The notes under the pieces were generated by a model. That model saw nothing but the letters and a program-made list of their open reading frames with translations. It made no database searches and was not told where the DNA came from. DNA of 61,383 nucleotides from Chloroflexota bacterium (GTDB lineage: Bacteria; Chloroflexota; Dehalococcoidia; Lucifugimonadales; Lucifugimonadaceae): assembly GCA_018649665.1 (NCBI GenBank), contig JABIHL010000089.1, forward strand, positions 1-61,383, in the 5' to 3' direction. The number at the start of each line of letters is the position of its first letter. Within the stretch, counting starts at the first letter, position 1. The translations under genes and the position numbers were made by a program. Of this stretch, positions 1 through 35,141 are shown piece by piece.

Positions 1-1
1 C

Positions 2-289
2 GAAGTCATCGACTCAGATATCCCAGTACTTGTTGATTTTTGGGCAGAATGGTGTGGTCCCTGCAAAATGATCGCTCCAGTAGTTGAAGAACTAGCCGGT
101 GAATACGACGGCAAGGCGAAATTCGTCAAACTGAACGTCGACTTCAACCCGCAGACATCGGCTAAGTACGGTGTTCGCAGTATCCCAACTCTATTGATCT
201 TCAAGGGCGGAGCCCCGGTTGGTCAGGTAGTTGGAGCAGTACCGAAGAGCGTGTTGCAGGCACGACTTGAAGACGCAATGTCTGTCTAA
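2..289 (+). CDS. trxA: thioredoxin, 5' end outside window
   Basis: Small disulfide reductase of the cytoplasm that reduces target protein disulfides and is recharged by thioredoxin reductase. The reading frame is open from base 2, so the start lies upstream of the window. The active-site WCGPCK is at 55-72 (two cysteines flanking Gly-Pro), preceded by the typical strand VLVDFWAEW. The cis-proline loop is seen as SIPTLLIF, and the C-terminal strand [14 protein letters not shown] is also typical. The visible 95 residues lack only the first 10 or so of the usual 105-110. A strong intrinsic terminator follows 23 bases after the stop, so this is the last gene of its transcript. The assignment is firm; whether it is the main thioredoxin of the cell cannot be told. 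Confidence 0.95.
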
Positions 290-312
290 GAGATTTTAGA
301 ATCTTATAAATC

Positions 313-349
313 GGCCCTGCCAGAATTACGCTGGTGGGGTCTTTTTTTT
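313..349 (+). terminator. intrinsic terminator after thioredoxin
   Basis: An 11-pair stem (313-323 with 331-341, including three G-T pairs) with a 7-base loop is followed directly by eight T residues at 342-349. It lies 23 bases past the thioredoxin stop. Confidence 0.9.
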
Positions 350-546
350 GCCCTTAGTTAAAGGGTGCGAAATTGCAATTGTCATTCTGAACTAGATTCA
401 GAATCTCGTGCGAAGTCACAACTGAAGATTCAGTCGCAACAAAATAATTGAATAATCTTTGCCCGATGAAGGCTGAAACATCAGCCAGCAGGTGAAACTC
501 GCGGTAATCTTGCTGAGTTCCCAATCTAACGGGTACGAAACAGTGG

Positions 547-644
547 GGGAGTGGATGGGTCCCGGTGGGCCTCACGGACTTCAACTCCGCTGGCGTGCGT
601 CCTTCGGCGTGCGCGGAGGGTTCGACTCCCTTGCACTCCCGCCA
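547..644 (+). tRNA. selC: tRNA-Sec (anticodon TCA)
   Basis: Selenocysteine tRNA, which reads UGA at SECIS-marked codons after SelA-dependent conversion of seryl-tRNA. The fold matches the bacterial tRNA-Sec plan. The acceptor strand is 547-554 with 633-640 (seven pairs plus a G-G at the eighth). The D stem has six pairs, 557-562 with 567-572, closed by the four-base loop CGGT as in E. coli. The anticodon loop CTTCAAC has TCA at 581-583. The long variable arm has nine pairs, 593-601 with 606-614, and the T arm is 616-632 with TTCGACT. Discriminator G641 and the CCA end are encoded. At 98 bases it is far longer than ordinary tRNAs. It stands alone between trxA and a histidine kinase; selA, selB and selD are not in the window. 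A serine tRNA is excluded by the anticodon and the six-pair D stem. Confidence 0.95.
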
Positions 645-29555: not shown

Positions 29556-31187
29556 CTAGATCGATTCCATGGGCTTGAACATGCAGCCCTCGACGAAGAA
29601 TTCGAAGAAGTCAGGAGCGGTCTCAAGTTCGACGTGTTCGACGGTTGAAGTCAGTTTTTCGATTTCTTCCCTTTTGAGGGTCGACAACAGCATGATTACA
29701 GCGCCTTCAAGCGAAGCATTGCCAACCTTTTCCACTTTGTCGAGCGGCATGTTCGCAATAAATCCGATATCGATAGCGTTCGCTTCATCGACGTAGTTGG
29801 CGAATCCGCCTGCAAGGTAAAGCTTCTCGAATTTTTCGATTGGAAGTCCGTACTCTCGCAAAACAATCGCCTGTCCGCAGTAGTTCGCAGCCTTCGCTTG
29901 GGCAAGAGCCGAAATGTCGGCTCGGGAGAGCGTTAGATTGTTCGTTGCGGAGAATTCGTATTCACCTGATCCGTCAGTGAATCTACCCAATTCGTCCATC
30001 ATGTTCGTTCGGCGTAGTTCGGCAATCAGATCGATTAGCCCTGAACCGCAAATCCCAATGGGATCGATTTCGCCTATTGCGCTCGAATCAGCAACCCCTC
30101 GGTCATCGATGACGACTTTCTCGACAGCGCCGTCATAACCGGGCATGCCGTAAGTAACTTCACCGCCCTCGAAGGCGGGTCCGGCAGGGCAGGAGGCGGC
30201 GAGAAGCCGATCACGATTGCCAATGACTACTTCTGTGTTGGTTCCGACATCAACAAGGATTATCGGTTCGATTTGATCTTCAATGCCTAGTGCCAACAGA
30301 TCGGCAGCGGTGTCGGCTCCGAGATGGGACGCGATCAGCGGACCGCCGTAAACAGTAGCTTTCGGGTGGATTCGGAGTTCGAGTTCTGCTGCAGTCGTTG
30401 TCAACGCGGTCGTGGTGCGCTTTGATTCTCGGAATTCGTCTTCAATCAACGACTTGTAGGGTCGAGTGCCGATGCTTTGTACATTGAGACCGAAAAACAG
30501 ATCACGCATGGTCGTATTACCAACCGCGACGATTTCGAAAATCTGACGCCTGCGAATCTTTAGTGCACGCACCATCTCGCCAATCTCAAAGTTGATCGAC
30601 GAAACCATGACGGCGAGTAACTCTCCCGAATCTTCGCCGCCGTCGTATGAAATCCGGTTCATAACGTCGCTGCCACCGAATCGCTGTGGATTCTCGAACG
30701 ATGCCGTGTATTCGATTTCGCCTGATTCGAGGTTTACGAGATTGAGAACGACAGTGGTTGTCCCGAGGTCGGCAGCGATGCCGTAGATGGCGCCACGGTA
30801 TGAATCGACTACGACTGGGCCATCTGTGTCGTTAAACACAACTTCGTCGTCTACTCGAACGTATGCCGGCTGTAGTTTGGTCTTCCGCTTCGTTCCGGCC
30901 GTGAGAATTCTGGGTTGCCTTCGAAGAACTGAAAAATCGATATCGACTTCGGTGTCGACCACACATGCCTGACACGCTAGTCGGTAATTTCCCCGGAGAA
31001 ACTTTTCCTCTTCGGTCGGAGGTGAGAGAGCGTCGGCCCCCTTGCGCACCTCGACGATGCACTCGTGACACTCGCCTGTGCGACCACAAGATGTGGGTAC
31101 TCGAATGGAAAGTGCATCAGCGAAGTCGAATAGCGAATCGTCTTTCTTCGCATCGAGTTCTTTTGAGTTTAGGAATACAGGACTCAA
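29556..31187 (-). CDS. RACo-type corrinoid activation protein (ASKHA/DUF4445)
   Basis: 543 residues. Such proteins use ATP and electrons to return inactive Co(II) corrinoid to Co(I). The N-terminus is a 2Fe-2S ferredoxin domain with Cys34, Cys40, Cys43 and Cys75 (a further Cys72 nearby). A linker leads to the ASKHA region with GIAADLGTTTVVLNLV, VAVGNTTMRDLFFGL, LLAASCPAGPAFEGGEVTYGMPG, GICGSGLIDLIAEL and LYLAGGFANYVDEANAIDIG. Length is a little shorter than some RACo proteins (about 630), mostly in the linker. It lies downstream of the corrinoid protein and methyltransferase genes, which is the expected company. TTG start at 31187; no strong ribosome site. Electron donor not identified in the window. 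Confidence 0.9.
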   Translation of the reverse strand: MSPVFLNSKELDAKKDDSLFDFADALSIRVPTSCGRTGECHECIVEVRKGADALSPPTEEEKFLRGNYRLACQACVVDTEVDIDFSVLRRQPRILTAGTKRKTKLQPAYVRVDDEVVFNDTDGPVVVDSYRGAIYGIAADLGTTTVVLNLVNLESGEIEYTASFENPQRFGGSDVMNRISYDGGEDSGELLAVMVSSINFEIGEMVRALKIRRRQIFEIVAVGNTTMRDLFFGLNVQSIGTRPYKSLIEDEFRESKRTTTALTTTAAELELRIHPKATVYGGPLIASHLGADTAADLLALGIEDQIEPIILVDVGTNTEVVIGNRDRLLAASCPAGPAFEGGEVTYGMPGYDGAVEKVVIDDRGVADSSAIGEIDPIGICGSGLIDLIAELRRTNMMDELGRFTDGSGEYEFSATNNLTLSRADISALAQAKAANYCGQAIVLREYGLPIEKFEKLYLAGGFANYVDEANAIDIGFIANMPLDKVEKVGNASLEGAVIMLLSTLKREEIEKLTSTVEHVELETAPDFFEFFVEGCMFKPMESI

Positions 31188-31288
31188 GAAAATTTGGTCT
31201 CAGAATCAGAAATGGTTAAGGACAAGTTCAAATCTGGACTATCCCAGACGTTTTAGTAACCGTGCTCAGCAAATAGCGTGAGATAGCG

Positions 31289-31555
31289 TTACTGATCCCA
31301 GGCTTCCCGGTAGTCGATCTGGTCGCTGCCAGCGCAGGCGGGTAGGGAAGTAGGATCATTAGTGAAGAATTGGTTTCGACAGCCGAATTTGGCGGTACAT
31401 CGACTTGCTGCGTCTTTGTACGGACATCGGGTTTGCATCACTTCATCGGCTGTCGAAGCTATGTCTTTGTAAATGTTGTAGAGCCGATCCAAGCTGGTGC
31501 GCGCTTTGTCGGAATCCACATTGGAATTGTCGTTACGGGCCTGTTCTTCAGCCAT
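31289..31555 (-). CDS. small four-cysteine protein, function unknown
   Basis: 88 residues, not recognised. A charged N-terminal half (EEQARNDNSNVDSDKARTSLDRLYNIYKDI) leads to four cysteines, Cys44, Cys53, Cys59 and Cys74 (spacing 8, 5 and 14 residues). They could hold a zinc ion or an iron-sulfur cluster. ATG at 31555 has GGGGG about six bases upstream. It lies 31 bases after the corrinoid gene and 101 bases before the activase gene, in the same direction, so it belongs to the methyl-transfer operon. Possible roles, all inference: electron donor or adaptor for the activase. No signal peptide or membrane segment. Confidence 0.65.
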   Translation of the reverse strand: MAEEQARNDNSNVDSDKARTSLDRLYNIYKDIASTADEVMQTRCPYKDAASRCTAKFGCRNQFFTNDPTSLPACAGSDQIDYREAWDQ

Positions 31556-31586
31556 GGAACACCCCCTTCACTTACCAGCGATTGGA

Positions 31587-32336
31587 CTAGCTGGACTTCA
31601 ATTCTGCAAGCAGAAGAACAAGTTCTTTTGCCTTATCGACAGCATCAACCGCATTGTCGCCGTAAGCATCAGCGCCCATCTCATCGGCGAAATCCTGCGT
31701 CACAGGTGCTCCACCTACCATGATTCGAACTTCGTCTCGAAGTCCCATATCTTCAAATGCAGCGATGGTTCGTCCCATGTTTGGCATCGTCGTTGTGAGT
31801 AGTGCTGACATTCCAACCACTTCAGCGTCGTGCTCTTCAGCTGCGTCGATGAAGTCATCTGGTGATGAATCAACCCCAATGTCATGAACGATAAACCCAG
31901 CACCACGAAGCATCATGATGCACAGATTCTTGCCGATGTCGTGAAGGTCGCCCTTCACCGTCCCCATGATGATAGTTCCGGCGGGCTTGGCGCCTGAAGC
32001 GGAGAGAATTGGTTCGATGTGAACCATTCCGGCTTTCATGGCACGAGCAGCTACCAATACTTCAGGAACAAATATTAGGTTGTCGCGGAACTTCACTCCG
32101 ACGATCGCCATGCCGTTGAGAAGCCCGTCGTCAAGCAACTGGTTGGCAGTGAAACCATCGGCGAGGGCTTCCTGAGTAAGCCGGTCAACTTCGGTGTTGT
32201 TGCCCACGATCAATTCGTAAGCCATCTCCTGCATGATCGGGGCAGTGTCGTCGATCGCTTCGGAAATATGTTTACGTTCGCCGGGGCTGGAAACGAATTC
32301 GAATTCTCGGGCTAGGCCTTCGTGCATGATCGGCAT
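31587..32336 (-). CDS. corrinoid (B12-binding) methyl carrier protein
   Basis: 249 residues, the MtbC/MtmC/MttC type. An N-terminal four-helix cap (ELIVGNNTEVDRLTQEALADG...LLDDGLLNGMAIVG) is followed by a B12-binding Rossmann domain. The signature GTVKGDLHDIGKN gives Asp130-x-His132-x-x-Gly135, with His as the lower cobalt ligand, then IGVDSSPDDFI, VVGMSALLTTTM and VRIMVGGAPVTQDFADEMGADAYG. Full-length and intact, except that the N-terminus is about 30 residues longer than in short members. It accepts a methyl group on cobalt and passes it to an acceptor. Neighbours on both sides supply methyltransferases and the activase. Confidence 0.93.
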   Translation of the reverse strand: MPIMHEGLAREFEFVSSPGERKHISEAIDDTAPIMQEMAYELIVGNNTEVDRLTQEALADGFTANQLLDDGLLNGMAIVGVKFRDNLIFVPEVLVAARAMKAGMVHIEPILSASGAKPAGTIIMGTVKGDLHDIGKNLCIMMLRGAGFIVHDIGVDSSPDDFIDAAEEHDAEVVGMSALLTTTMPNMGRTIAAFEDMGLRDEVRIMVGGAPVTQDFADEMGADAYGDNAVDAVDKAKELVLLLAELKSS

Positions 32337-32483
32337 TAATTATCTCGAAATTACTGACTACAGGGTCTTGAGGAGTCCGGATTGCTCTCAGAGTTTCTGA
32401 GACGAGAAACCGGCTCCAATCACTAATTGTCTCATCGGAACGATGGAAAATGAATTAAATATCTTTAAGCGGCAGATTCAACG

Positions 32484-33527
32484 TTAATTGAGACCACGTT
32501 CGGCAACCCAATCTTCGATTGCTGCTGGTATCTCCAAGAGATTTTCCAACTTGGTCTTGAGGGGGATCGCACATTCAGGGGCGATGAGCTGAACACCGGC
32601 GTCGAGAGCAGCACTCACTTCAGCTCGAACTTCTTCGGGACCTCTGGCGTACAGCGTTGTTGGGTTGTTGATGTTTCCCACAAGTCGAATTTTGCCGTTG
32701 ACTGCTGCCATCGCTTCAACTGGGTCGTTCTTGGAGTCAAAATGGAATGCCGCCATGCCGGTTTCGGCGATGTAAGGCATTCGATCGACTGTTGCCCCAC
32801 AAATGTGAAGTATCAGAGGAACAGAAAGTTCTTCTTCGATCTCCTGGTGCATCTCCATTAAGAAACGCTTGTAGTACTCACCACTGACGAGATCGCCGGT
32901 TGCGTGGTCTGGGATGGTCAGTACGTCGGCACCAGCATCGATTTGAGCTTGGCCGTACAAGATTGTGATCTCTTTGAGAGCTTCCAGTGACTTCATAGTC
33001 TCGGCTGGATCATCGACAGTCCCAAGCAAGAACGGTTCAACTCCGAATACGTGGTATGCGAGAGTCCATGGCCCCATCGTCTTACCGACGACAGCTACAT
33101 CATCACCAAACTCCTTCTTCAGGATGCTGATCGAGTCAGTAATCGCCTTCGCATCAGGATGTTCAAGAAAACCGGCAGGAATTTTTACGTCAGATGAACC
33201 CTTCCAGATCGGATTGGACATCCGAACGGTAGGCCAGTTGTCCTTCTGTTCCCACTGCATGTCGCAACCGAGAGCAGATGATTCTTGAATGATCGAGAAA
33301 TAAGGGGCGATCGTGTCGAAGCCCAGTTCGGTATATGCGGTTGCAGCCAAGCGAGCGTTCATCTCGCCATCGCGATTGGCATCGGGGAACGGCGCGTCTA
33401 CAAGGTCCATCAGTTCGACTGTGGCGACATTGGTCGGGGTACAGACGGGTGGGCGATCTACTGGTTCTCCAGCGAGAGCGGCCATTACACGCTCTCGGGA
33501 GGTCATTTTTTCAACTACGGGTGACAT
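32484..33527 (-). CDS. UroD-family methyltransferase (MtaA/MtbA-like)
   Basis: 347 residues, TIM barrel of the uroporphyrinogen decarboxylase superfamily. A zinc site like that of MtaA/MtbA is seen: His241-x-Cys243 (LILHICGATVDRM) and Cys319 (APECAIPLKTKLENL). That Cys-containing site is absent from true UroD, which makes porphyrin work unlikely. Family members move methyl groups between corrinoid proteins and thiols, or act as the first methyltransferase on methylated substrates. It lies 147 bases upstream of the corrinoid protein gene. Whether it is donor-side or acceptor-side cannot be settled: the nearby homocysteine methyltransferase could fill the acceptor role, which would leave this one as donor-side. 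Confidence 0.88.
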   Translation of the reverse strand: MSPVVEKMTSRERVMAALAGEPVDRPPVCTPTNVATVELMDLVDAPFPDANRDGEMNARLAATAYTELGFDTIAPYFSIIQESSALGCDMQWEQKDNWPTVRMSNPIWKGSSDVKIPAGFLEHPDAKAITDSISILKKEFGDDVAVVGKTMGPWTLAYHVFGVEPFLLGTVDDPAETMKSLEALKEITILYGQAQIDAGADVLTIPDHATGDLVSGEYYKRFLMEMHQEIEEELSVPLILHICGATVDRMPYIAETGMAAFHFDSKNDPVEAMAAVNGKIRLVGNINNPTTLYARGPEEVRAEVSAALDAGVQLIAPECAIPLKTKLENLLEIPAAIEDWVAERGLN

Positions 33528-33545
33528 GTGATCTTGTCCTGAAGA

Positions 33546-34238
33546 CTAACTCTGGGCGAATCCGAGTGTTTGCGTGTTCATCTGGCCAGCCATTTCGTCT
33601 TGCTCAAGTTGAGCTTCGACTGCGCTGACGTTCCGGGCTAGCGGCAGGATTAGCCGAGCGAAGTTGTCGTATTTCTTGCCGTCGGGGAATGAAAATTGGT
33701 GTTTGTCGACACGTGTGCAACCTGAATAGCGAATGAATCCACCAACAGCGGCCATAACGCGTCTCTCTGGGCGTTCTGCTTGGCCTTCAGTAGAAACGGT
33801 GTAAACGTACTGATCGCCAACTTGTTCGCCTTCGATTACGAAAGTTAGCTTGGTTTTGGTGTCGGGAGCAGTGATCCGACCGGACGGCAGTTCAATTGCC
33901 GGATCTTTCTCGACAGCTGCCGTGAACATGAACCGGAGTGCTCGGTCGAGTTGTAAGTCAGATATCAACCGAAGCTGATTGGATGTTCGCTCTACCGCAT
34001 CCACATCTCCGAGGAGAACACATCGGTCACGTATTTGCTCGATACGAGCGTCAATGCCATCGAAGGTGCTGTAGCTAAAGATGGTCATCAGTCCGTCTTT
34101 AATGAACAGACCAATAGTGACGTCGTGGAAGTGCGGATCGATTGAAACTAGTTCAATACATTGACCCAGACTTTTGACTTGCTCAACAATTCTCGATTTT
34201 TGTGCCGATGGGGGCATCGGTGACCTCTTCTTAGGCAA
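33546..34238 (-). CDS. unknown protein in corrinoid operon
   Basis: 230 residues, no family recognised. It has a basic N-terminus, a central alpha/beta region (VEQVKSLGQCIELVSIDPHFHDVTIGLFI; MTIFSYSTFDGIDARIEQIRDR), then LQLDRALRFMFTAAVEKDP and a beta-rich part (TKLTFVIEGEQVGDQYVYTVST), with KYDNFARLILPLARNV near the end. It has no signal peptide, no cysteine cluster and no membrane segment. It lies six bases from the homocysteine methyltransferase stop and 18 bases from the UroD-type gene, so it is firmly in the operon. The histidines in DPHFHD could bind metal, but this is speculative. It may be a substrate-specific component of the pathway. Confidence 0.7.
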   Translation of the reverse strand: MPKKRSPMPPSAQKSRIVEQVKSLGQCIELVSIDPHFHDVTIGLFIKDGLMTIFSYSTFDGIDARIEQIRDRCVLLGDVDAVERTSNQLRLISDLQLDRALRFMFTAAVEKDPAIELPSGRITAPDTKTKLTFVIEGEQVGDQYVYTVSTEGQAERPERRVMAAVGGFIRYSGCTRVDKHQFSFPDGKKYDNFARLILPLARNVSAVEAQLEQDEMAGQMNTQTLGFAQS

Positions 34239-34244
34239 TTTCGA

Positions 34245-35141
34245 TTACGCTCGGACAGATTGTACGAGTGCTCGGATGTGGTCGGCAGTGGTTCCGCAGC
34301 ATCCGCCGAGGATATTTATTGGCAATTCAGCCAACTCGCGATAGTGCTTCGCCATGAACTCTGGAGTTTCGAGGTAGCAGGTTTCGCCGTTTTTGATAAT
34401 CGGCAGACCAGCGTTCGATTGAACGACTAGGTATTTGTCGGTTGCAGCTCGCATTCGAGTGGCAATCTCAACCATTCGTTCGATTCCGTTCCCGCAGTTG
34501 GTTCCTACGATATCGGCACCGGCTTCTTCGAGACCTTCTACAGCCTGTTCGGGAGTTACACCCATCATTGTGAAATAGCCGCGTGGACCTTTGTCGAAAA
34601 CCATAGTCGCCATGACTGCGAGACCCGTTGTTTCTTTTGCCGCACGAACCGCGATCGCAGCTTCTTCGATAGCAAGCTGAGTTTCGATCATCACGGCATC
34701 GGCACCACCAGCCTCAAACGCCTTCGACATTTCAGAGAACGTTTCATAAAGCTCGTCTTCAGTAGCTGTCCCTAATGGCTCGATGAACTCGCCAGTAGGA
34801 CCGATCGAACCAGCCACGTATTTGCCTTCGGGAGCGACGGCTCGTGCGTGCTCGGCGGCTAACTTGTTTAGTTCGAACAGTCGGTCGCCAGCGCCGTAAC
34901 GTTCGAGCATGAACTTGTTGCCCCCAAACGAGTTGGTGAGAACGATGTCGGAGCCGGCATCGAAATATTGCTTAGACATTCCCTTAACAACTTCAGGGTT
35001 GTCGGCATTCATCAGTTCGGGGCTGCCACCAGGTTCCAGACCGTTGTTCTGAAGGTATGTTCCGGTCGCACCGTCAAAGATCAGCGTGTCGCCGGCTGCG
35101 AGTCGGTCAAGAATGCCCGGTTTTCCGTCAGAAGCTGCCAA
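34245..35141 (-). CDS. homocysteine S-methyltransferase family protein
   Basis: 298 residues, the size of the homocysteine-binding domain at the N-terminus of MetH. Signatures are IFDGATGTYLQNNGL, LTNSFGGNKFMLERYG, GSIGPTGEFIEPLG, DAVMIETQ, TMMGVTPEQAVEGL and the zinc ligands Cys216 (VGTNCGNG) and Cys281-Cys282 (ILGGCCGTTADH). Stand-alone, it lacks the folate, B12 and reactivation domains of MetH. Those may be replaced by the corrinoid protein and activase next door, giving methionine as product. Methylcobalamin on the carrier could donate the methyl group. The methyl source is unknown. Betaine-homocysteine or S-methylmethionine-type action is also possible. Confidence 0.92.
   Translation of the reverse strand: MAASDGKPGILDRLAAGDTLIFDGATGTYLQNNGLEPGGSPELMNADNPEVVKGMSKQYFDAGSDIVLTNSFGGNKFMLERYGAGDRLFELNKLAAEHARAVAPEGKYVAGSIGPTGEFIEPLGTATEDELYETFSEMSKAFEAGGADAVMIETQLAIEEAAIAVRAAKETTGLAVMATMVFDKGPRGYFTMMGVTPEQAVEGLEEAGADIVGTNCGNGIERMVEIATRMRAATDKYLVVQSNAGLPIIKNGETCYLETPEFMAKHYRELAELPINILGGCCGTTADHIRALVQSVRA

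Follow-up and report, generated by a model that had tools for sequence, protein, structure and literature searches.

A selenocysteine tRNA gene of a SAR202-clade marine bacterium, its insertion machinery and its conserved thioredoxin neighbour

Introduction

A gene for selenocysteine (Sec) tRNA, selC, that stands apart from selA, selB and selD raises the question of whether it serves a working Sec insertion system or is left over from one, and which enzymes would use the tRNA. This question is posed by a 61,383-nucleotide stretch of DNA from a Chloroflexota bacterium (the whole of which is called the window below), since a first-pass annotation made from the sequence reported a full tRNA-Sec at positions 547-644 and proposed that selenoprotein synthesis in the organism is very likely. 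The steps of bacterial Sec insertion, which involve SerRS, SelA, SelD and SelB, form a known pathway, so the genome can be searched for each of its parts.

The window corresponds to contig C144 in a 2.65 Mb genome bin (180 contigs, 86% complete, with 3.65% contamination). Sequence comparison places the source organism in the same genus as Candidatus Lucifugimonas marina (SAR202 cluster, Dehalococcoidia, Chloroflexota). SAR202 bacteria occur throughout the ocean (PMC10444878). The cultured relative JH1073 falls in the same genus, because its SelB is 81% identical to that of the bin and a same-genus genome (G014) matches CP046147.1 exactly over 11.8 kb. Selenium goes unmentioned in the main text of the paper that reports the cultivation (PMC10444878), and full-text literature searches returned no paper that treats selenoproteins of SAR202; SelA and SelB have been noted in sponge-symbiont bins of various phyla (PMC5649159).

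Results

Identity of the tRNA

The gene at 547-644 on the plus strand is a genuine tRNA-Sec. It is called as such by ARAGORN, with anticodon tca (UCA), G73 and an encoded CCA, and it scores 66.4 bits with the Rfam model RF01852 (cut-off 47) with the whole model covered, so both methods agree with the first-pass annotation. The bases also bear out each structural feature named there, namely the TCA anticodon, a D stem of six pairs (11-16/21-26 in tRNA numbering) closed by a CGGT loop, and a variable arm of nine pairs (47-55/60-68), three of them G-U, with a CTTC loop. Compared with the 8-bp acceptor stem and 5-bp T stem expected of a bacterial tRNA-Sec, the acceptor stem here consists of seven pairs plus a G8-G87 mismatch and the T stem has five pairs; the anticodon stem carries a mismatch of A28 with C44. 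Of 19 distinct relatives, 8 likewise leave column 8-87 without a pair, which makes the G8-G87 mismatch a trait of the clade.

The folding energy of this tRNA is ordinary (z -1.1), so the evidence for it comes from the covariance model and from its relatives. When 21 relatives are aligned, 95% of the cells in the cloverleaf are paired, and 21 pairs show double-sided changes versus 13 in shuffles, with none of 500 shuffles as good. Relative to bacterial selC genes as modelled by RF01852, the shared features are the length, the long acceptor plus T helix, the six-pair D stem with its CGGU loop, the long variable arm, the UCA anticodon, G73 and CCA, whereas this gene differs in having G8-G87 at the base of the acceptor stem, as do several relatives, and in coming after trxA. 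Some other lineages have a selC that is contained in selB or overlaps it (PMC13188914). A second RF01852 match in the genome (contig C20, 53.7 bits) is a tRNA-Ser(GCU).

Partner genes elsewhere in the genome

A profile search of the 61,383-nucleotide window found no sel gene besides selC, as the first-pass annotation had stated. All three partners were located on other contigs, each above its curated cut-off: selA at C22:15762-17102 (529 bits), selB at C159:4250-5353 (320 bits), whose product has the C-terminal winged-helix domains PF09106 and PF09107, and selD at C168:19179-20105 (366 bits), which contains one in-frame TGA. Therefore, selA, selB, selC and selD, the genes by which the Sec-decoding trait is recognized, are all found in one genome. 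According to the first-pass annotation, the tRNA would have to be seen as a relic if selA, selB and selD were absent from the genome; a genome-wide check finds the reverse, and the presence of the three genes argues that the tRNA is no relic.

The bin thus has all parts of the bacterial SelA/SelB/SelD system and shares with it SECIS-type hairpins in the coding region directly past the UGA, but here the four genes are spread across four contigs and SelD is itself a selenoprotein, which is a known variant. Since none of the partner genes or Sec genes shares a contig with the tRNA-Sec, binning errors are possible in principle; the closed genome of JH1073 presents the same picture, with selA, selB, an identical tRNA-Sec and four of the same Sec genes (FdhA, SelW and two UGSC proteins).

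Selenoprotein genes

Searches that read through stops revealed nine genes with an in-frame UGA at a known catalytic position, a number that is a lower bound for targeted searches and chosen stretches of the genome. These genes encode SelD (C168), the formate dehydrogenase FdhA (C33, one TGA), a UGSC protein of 184 amino acids (C175), a UGSC fusion of 546 amino acids (C65; locus L079, G000:C65), a Sec-containing SelW (C29; locus L080, G000:C29) and four AhpC-TSA-type, peroxiredoxin/thioredoxin-like proteins (C180, C136, C167 and C9). The motifs read through are all known ones (CAGUAGK, SRTUHAP, UGSC, UGTC, CVTU, FTGGU, YWUTFC, SWUAC and GWUPYC). The UGA is kept in all 12 relative sequences read for FdhA, across 20 genomes for UGSC (the exceptions being two marginal partial matches) and in most relatives for SelW. 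Together with selA, selB and selD, these nine genes support the earlier proposal that the organism makes selenoproteins.

The two UGSC proteins differ in how well they fit the family. The 184-residue protein scores 134 bits with NF041046, above the NCBIfam cut-off of 125, while the 546-residue fusion falls below it (99.7 bits) but reaches 105.3 bits with the Pfam UGSC family PF24696 (cut-off 25), so the latter is best called a divergent, fused UGSC-like protein with a UGTC motif. Its C-terminal ~350 amino acids match no Pfam family, and its UGA is kept across the genus. The Sec SelW gene lies beside a gene for a Cys SelW, and this tandem recurs across the genus, providing a ready pair for Sec/Cys comparison.

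In-frame UGA scans of the window, by frame and then by a codon-usage score that recovers all nine known Sec genes, gave no credible selenoprotein gene; the first-pass annotation had likewise found none that it could support there, and all nine lie elsewhere. The hits of the codon-usage score in the window were rejected as antisense frames or as frames that run on past where ordinary genes end. Blind scanning of a further 199 kb of the genome (7.5%) yielded no additional credible Sec gene, and GRDB/PrdB (PF07355) and AhpD/CMD (PF02627) have no match in the genome. Among other contents of the window is a minus-strand corrinoid methyltransferase cluster (29556-35141) that comprises a RACo-type activator, a B12-binding corrinoid protein, a URO-D-type methyltransferase and a homocysteine S-methyltransferase, plus a protein (33546-34238) with no Pfam family.

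In the GOS marine survey, SelW-like proteins, SelD, UGSC, Prx and Prx/Trx-like proteins were among the most abundant selenoprotein families (PMC2398784). The same families are present in this genome, which has FdhA as well; the survey could not place them in SAR202, and its text does not mention Chloroflexi by name (PMC2398784).

SECIS-type hairpins and the relic explanation

Hairpins of SECIS-type geometry are found downstream of all nine UGAs; for example, the GGUAU loop of the FdhA hairpin begins 19 bases past the UGA. With all sites scored in the same way, the mean best hairpin energy at the nine UGAs is -6.5 kcal/mol, versus -1.5 at 2000 random control codons (p about 1e-6) and -1.7 at 120 Cys codons (p about 6e-6). 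Two of the nine are weak (SelD, -3.7; Prx3, -3.4 kcal/mol). A published model of the bacterial SECIS places a G in the first two loop positions and the loop 16-37 nt past the UGA, with an MFE <= -7.5 kcal/mol (PMC13188914); three of the nine hairpins (FdhA, the UGSC fusion and Prx1) reach that value, in a comparison that is not like-for-like because ours are stem-only energies.

These data bear on whether the tRNA is a relic of a lost Sec system, with the UGA-interrupted genes being pseudogenes or sequencing errors. Bacteria often lose Sec use, bins contain errors and the stems of this tRNA have two mismatches, all of which would fit such a history. It is nevertheless highly improbable, given that selA, selB and selD are intact and that the nine genes have their UGA at the catalytic residue, kept in relatives and followed by SECIS-type hairpins. 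In addition, the tRNA-Sec of JH1073 is identical to 547-644 at 98 of 98 positions, although the flanks have diverged (identity of 90% in trx, 31% and 52% with gaps in the intergenic regions, and 66% in the histidine kinase gene).

Use of UGA as a stop

Among 240 genes sampled from the window and from 313 kb on further contigs of the genome, most stop codons are TAG (121 genes). TGA is under-used (33 genes), even though neither of the other two triplets is as common. This scarcity is what one would expect if UGA were an ordinary sense codon throughout the genome, read everywhere by the tRNA. With the internal TGA of FdhA set aside, however, TGA terminates 32 of the 239 remaining genes, which indicates recoding, not reassignment. 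The in-frame TGAs within genes are found at redox-active residues only, the tRNA is a Sec tRNA, and SelB and SECIS-type hairpins are present as well, so that genome-wide reassignment has almost no likelihood.

Spread of the Sec trait among relatives

A tRNA-Sec (>= 58 bits) was found in 109 of 149 relatives and selA in 114 of 147. Across 147 genomes (taken as G000-G146), the two genes co-occur, with both in 101, neither in 27 and one only in 19 (p = 3e-14), and the small-genome genera g5 and g6 have neither. In three of four members of the window's genus that have selA but appear to miss the tRNA, the contig breaks inside the gene (at base 53 in G001 and base 60 in G015) or terminates within the upstream nuoG-like gene (G008). 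The breaks in the gene are probably due to the tRNA being identical among co-occurring species while its flanks are not. Contigs that end in or at the edge of the tRNA-Sec are seen at three loci (L192, G001:C35; L193, G015:C18; L260, G013:C3), and such breakage implies that counts of tRNA-Sec in bins are underestimates. One locus (L240, G069:C329) has two tRNA-Sec copies ~1.6 kb apart on the same contig.

A conserved trxA-selC pair

The first-pass annotation, correct on the tRNA itself, made no mention of the thioredoxin gene that adjoins it upstream and is its conserved neighbour. This trxA gene (1-289, plus strand; active site WCGPCK) is cut at its 5' end by the contig edge and is the genome's only strong match to the thioredoxin family (PF00085, 102.6 bits); in JH1073 an intact orthologue that passes the NCBIfam thioredoxin model TIGR01068 lies directly upstream of the tRNA-Sec. 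A thioredoxin gene occupies this place, on the same strand, in all 20 of the first relatives read, and trxA is immediately 5' of the tRNA-Sec at 71 of 83 loci, which gives 31 of 36 families in the order (the loci covered are window positions 1-644 and L013-L032, L191, L195, L196 and L201-L260). The real exceptions are families f16, f23, f29 and f30 and some genomes of f1 (G038, G064 and G069); the fifth family that does not show the pair, f36, is represented by only 80 bases of upstream sequence. In many relatives the thioredoxin next to the tRNA-Sec has a non-standard WCxPC active site, such as WCAPC, WCQPC, WCVPC, WCMPC, WCYPC or WCHPC (L013-L016, L020, L021, L026, L030-L032, L201, L204, L206, L207 and others).

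No other neighbour of the tRNA-Sec is as conserved as trxA. Counting one locus per family, trx is present in 31 of 35 families and a NifS/IscS-type cysteine desulfurase gene further upstream in 14 of 35, and no gene downstream is widely kept in the 35 families. Among the loci checked, the nuoG-like gene upstream of trx is confined to family f1, and the histidine kinase gene that neighbours the tRNA in the window recurs in JH1073 only. Large minus-strand neighbour clusters overlap trx and were set aside, as they look like antisense shadows. The pair was probably already present in the ancestor of the order's families, and no description of a trxA-selC link was found in the literature searched.

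Between trxA and the tRNA-Sec of the window lies a terminator-like hairpin with a T8 tail (313-341, plus strand). The consensus scan that identified it found one hairpin versus 1.1 expected by chance, and this one is credible because it is right behind the trxA stop and has an 8-T tail; its presence suggests that trxA and selC may be transcribed separately in the window's genus. Across the order, the trxA-selC spacers are 8-350 bases long (median 56); 14 of 31 families have a spacer of <=50 bases, and 3 of 31 have one that contains a terminator-like hairpin.

Discussion

The gene at 547-644 is, with near certainty, the selC of a complete bacterial Sec insertion system in a SAR202-clade marine bacterium. 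The tRNA-Sec and its partners are machinery of a known kind that would carry out standard bacterial Sec insertion. As the pathway would run in this organism, SerRS would load the selC tRNA with serine, SelA would turn the serine into Sec using selenophosphate from SelD, and SelB would bring the Sec-tRNA to a UGA marked by a hairpin with its loop ~16-23 bases downstream; elsewhere UGA acts as an ordinary stop. The predicted users of Sec are SelD, FdhA, the two UGSC proteins, SelW and the four peroxiredoxin/thioredoxin-like proteins. The selC gene itself sits in a trxA-selC pair that is common to most families of the order, with a terminator between the two genes in this genus.

What is new is this order-wide trxA-selC pair, a conserved arrangement that is out of the ordinary. 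Selenium can be set free by cysteine desulfurases, and the substrates that thioredoxin reduces include selenite and peroxiredoxins, which makes a selenium-supply module plausible. It is possible, though we regard it as doubtful, that the pair is a functional unit in which thioredoxin, together in some families with a NifS-type desulfurase, provides selenium or electrons to Sec synthesis and to Sec enzymes, and selC is co-transcribed with trxA. More specifically, (nifS)-trxA-selC could tentatively be seen as a conserved selenium/thiol module in which a thioredoxin, often of the CxPC type, and a desulfurase feed selenium or electrons to both Sec synthesis and Sec peroxidases, with the selC tRNA being cut out of the trxA transcript. 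The position of trxA directly 5' of selC in most families, the short spacers with few terminator-like hairpins, the nifS-type gene that 14 of 35 families have further upstream and the status of the window's trxA as the sole strong thioredoxin gene of its genome are consistent with such a unit, while the terminator in the window's genus and the families without the pair argue against it. Moreover, given the housekeeping role of trxA, the link may reflect no more than a convenient promoter or an ancestral gene order. If the module exists, the supply of Sec-tRNA would follow thioredoxin expression, and thioredoxin may couple selenium or electron supply to Sec-tRNA.

For specialists, the interest may lie in a rich set of Sec enzymes in a SAR202 genus with cultured members, plus the trxA-selC pair. 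Because a genus with a cultured member has a complete Sec system and no fewer than nine Sec enzymes, selenium dependence of the group is directly testable; among these enzymes are the UGSC proteins, which are poorly understood and occur commonly in marine metagenomes. The trxA-selC pair found across the order hints that thioredoxin and the supply of Sec may be connected.
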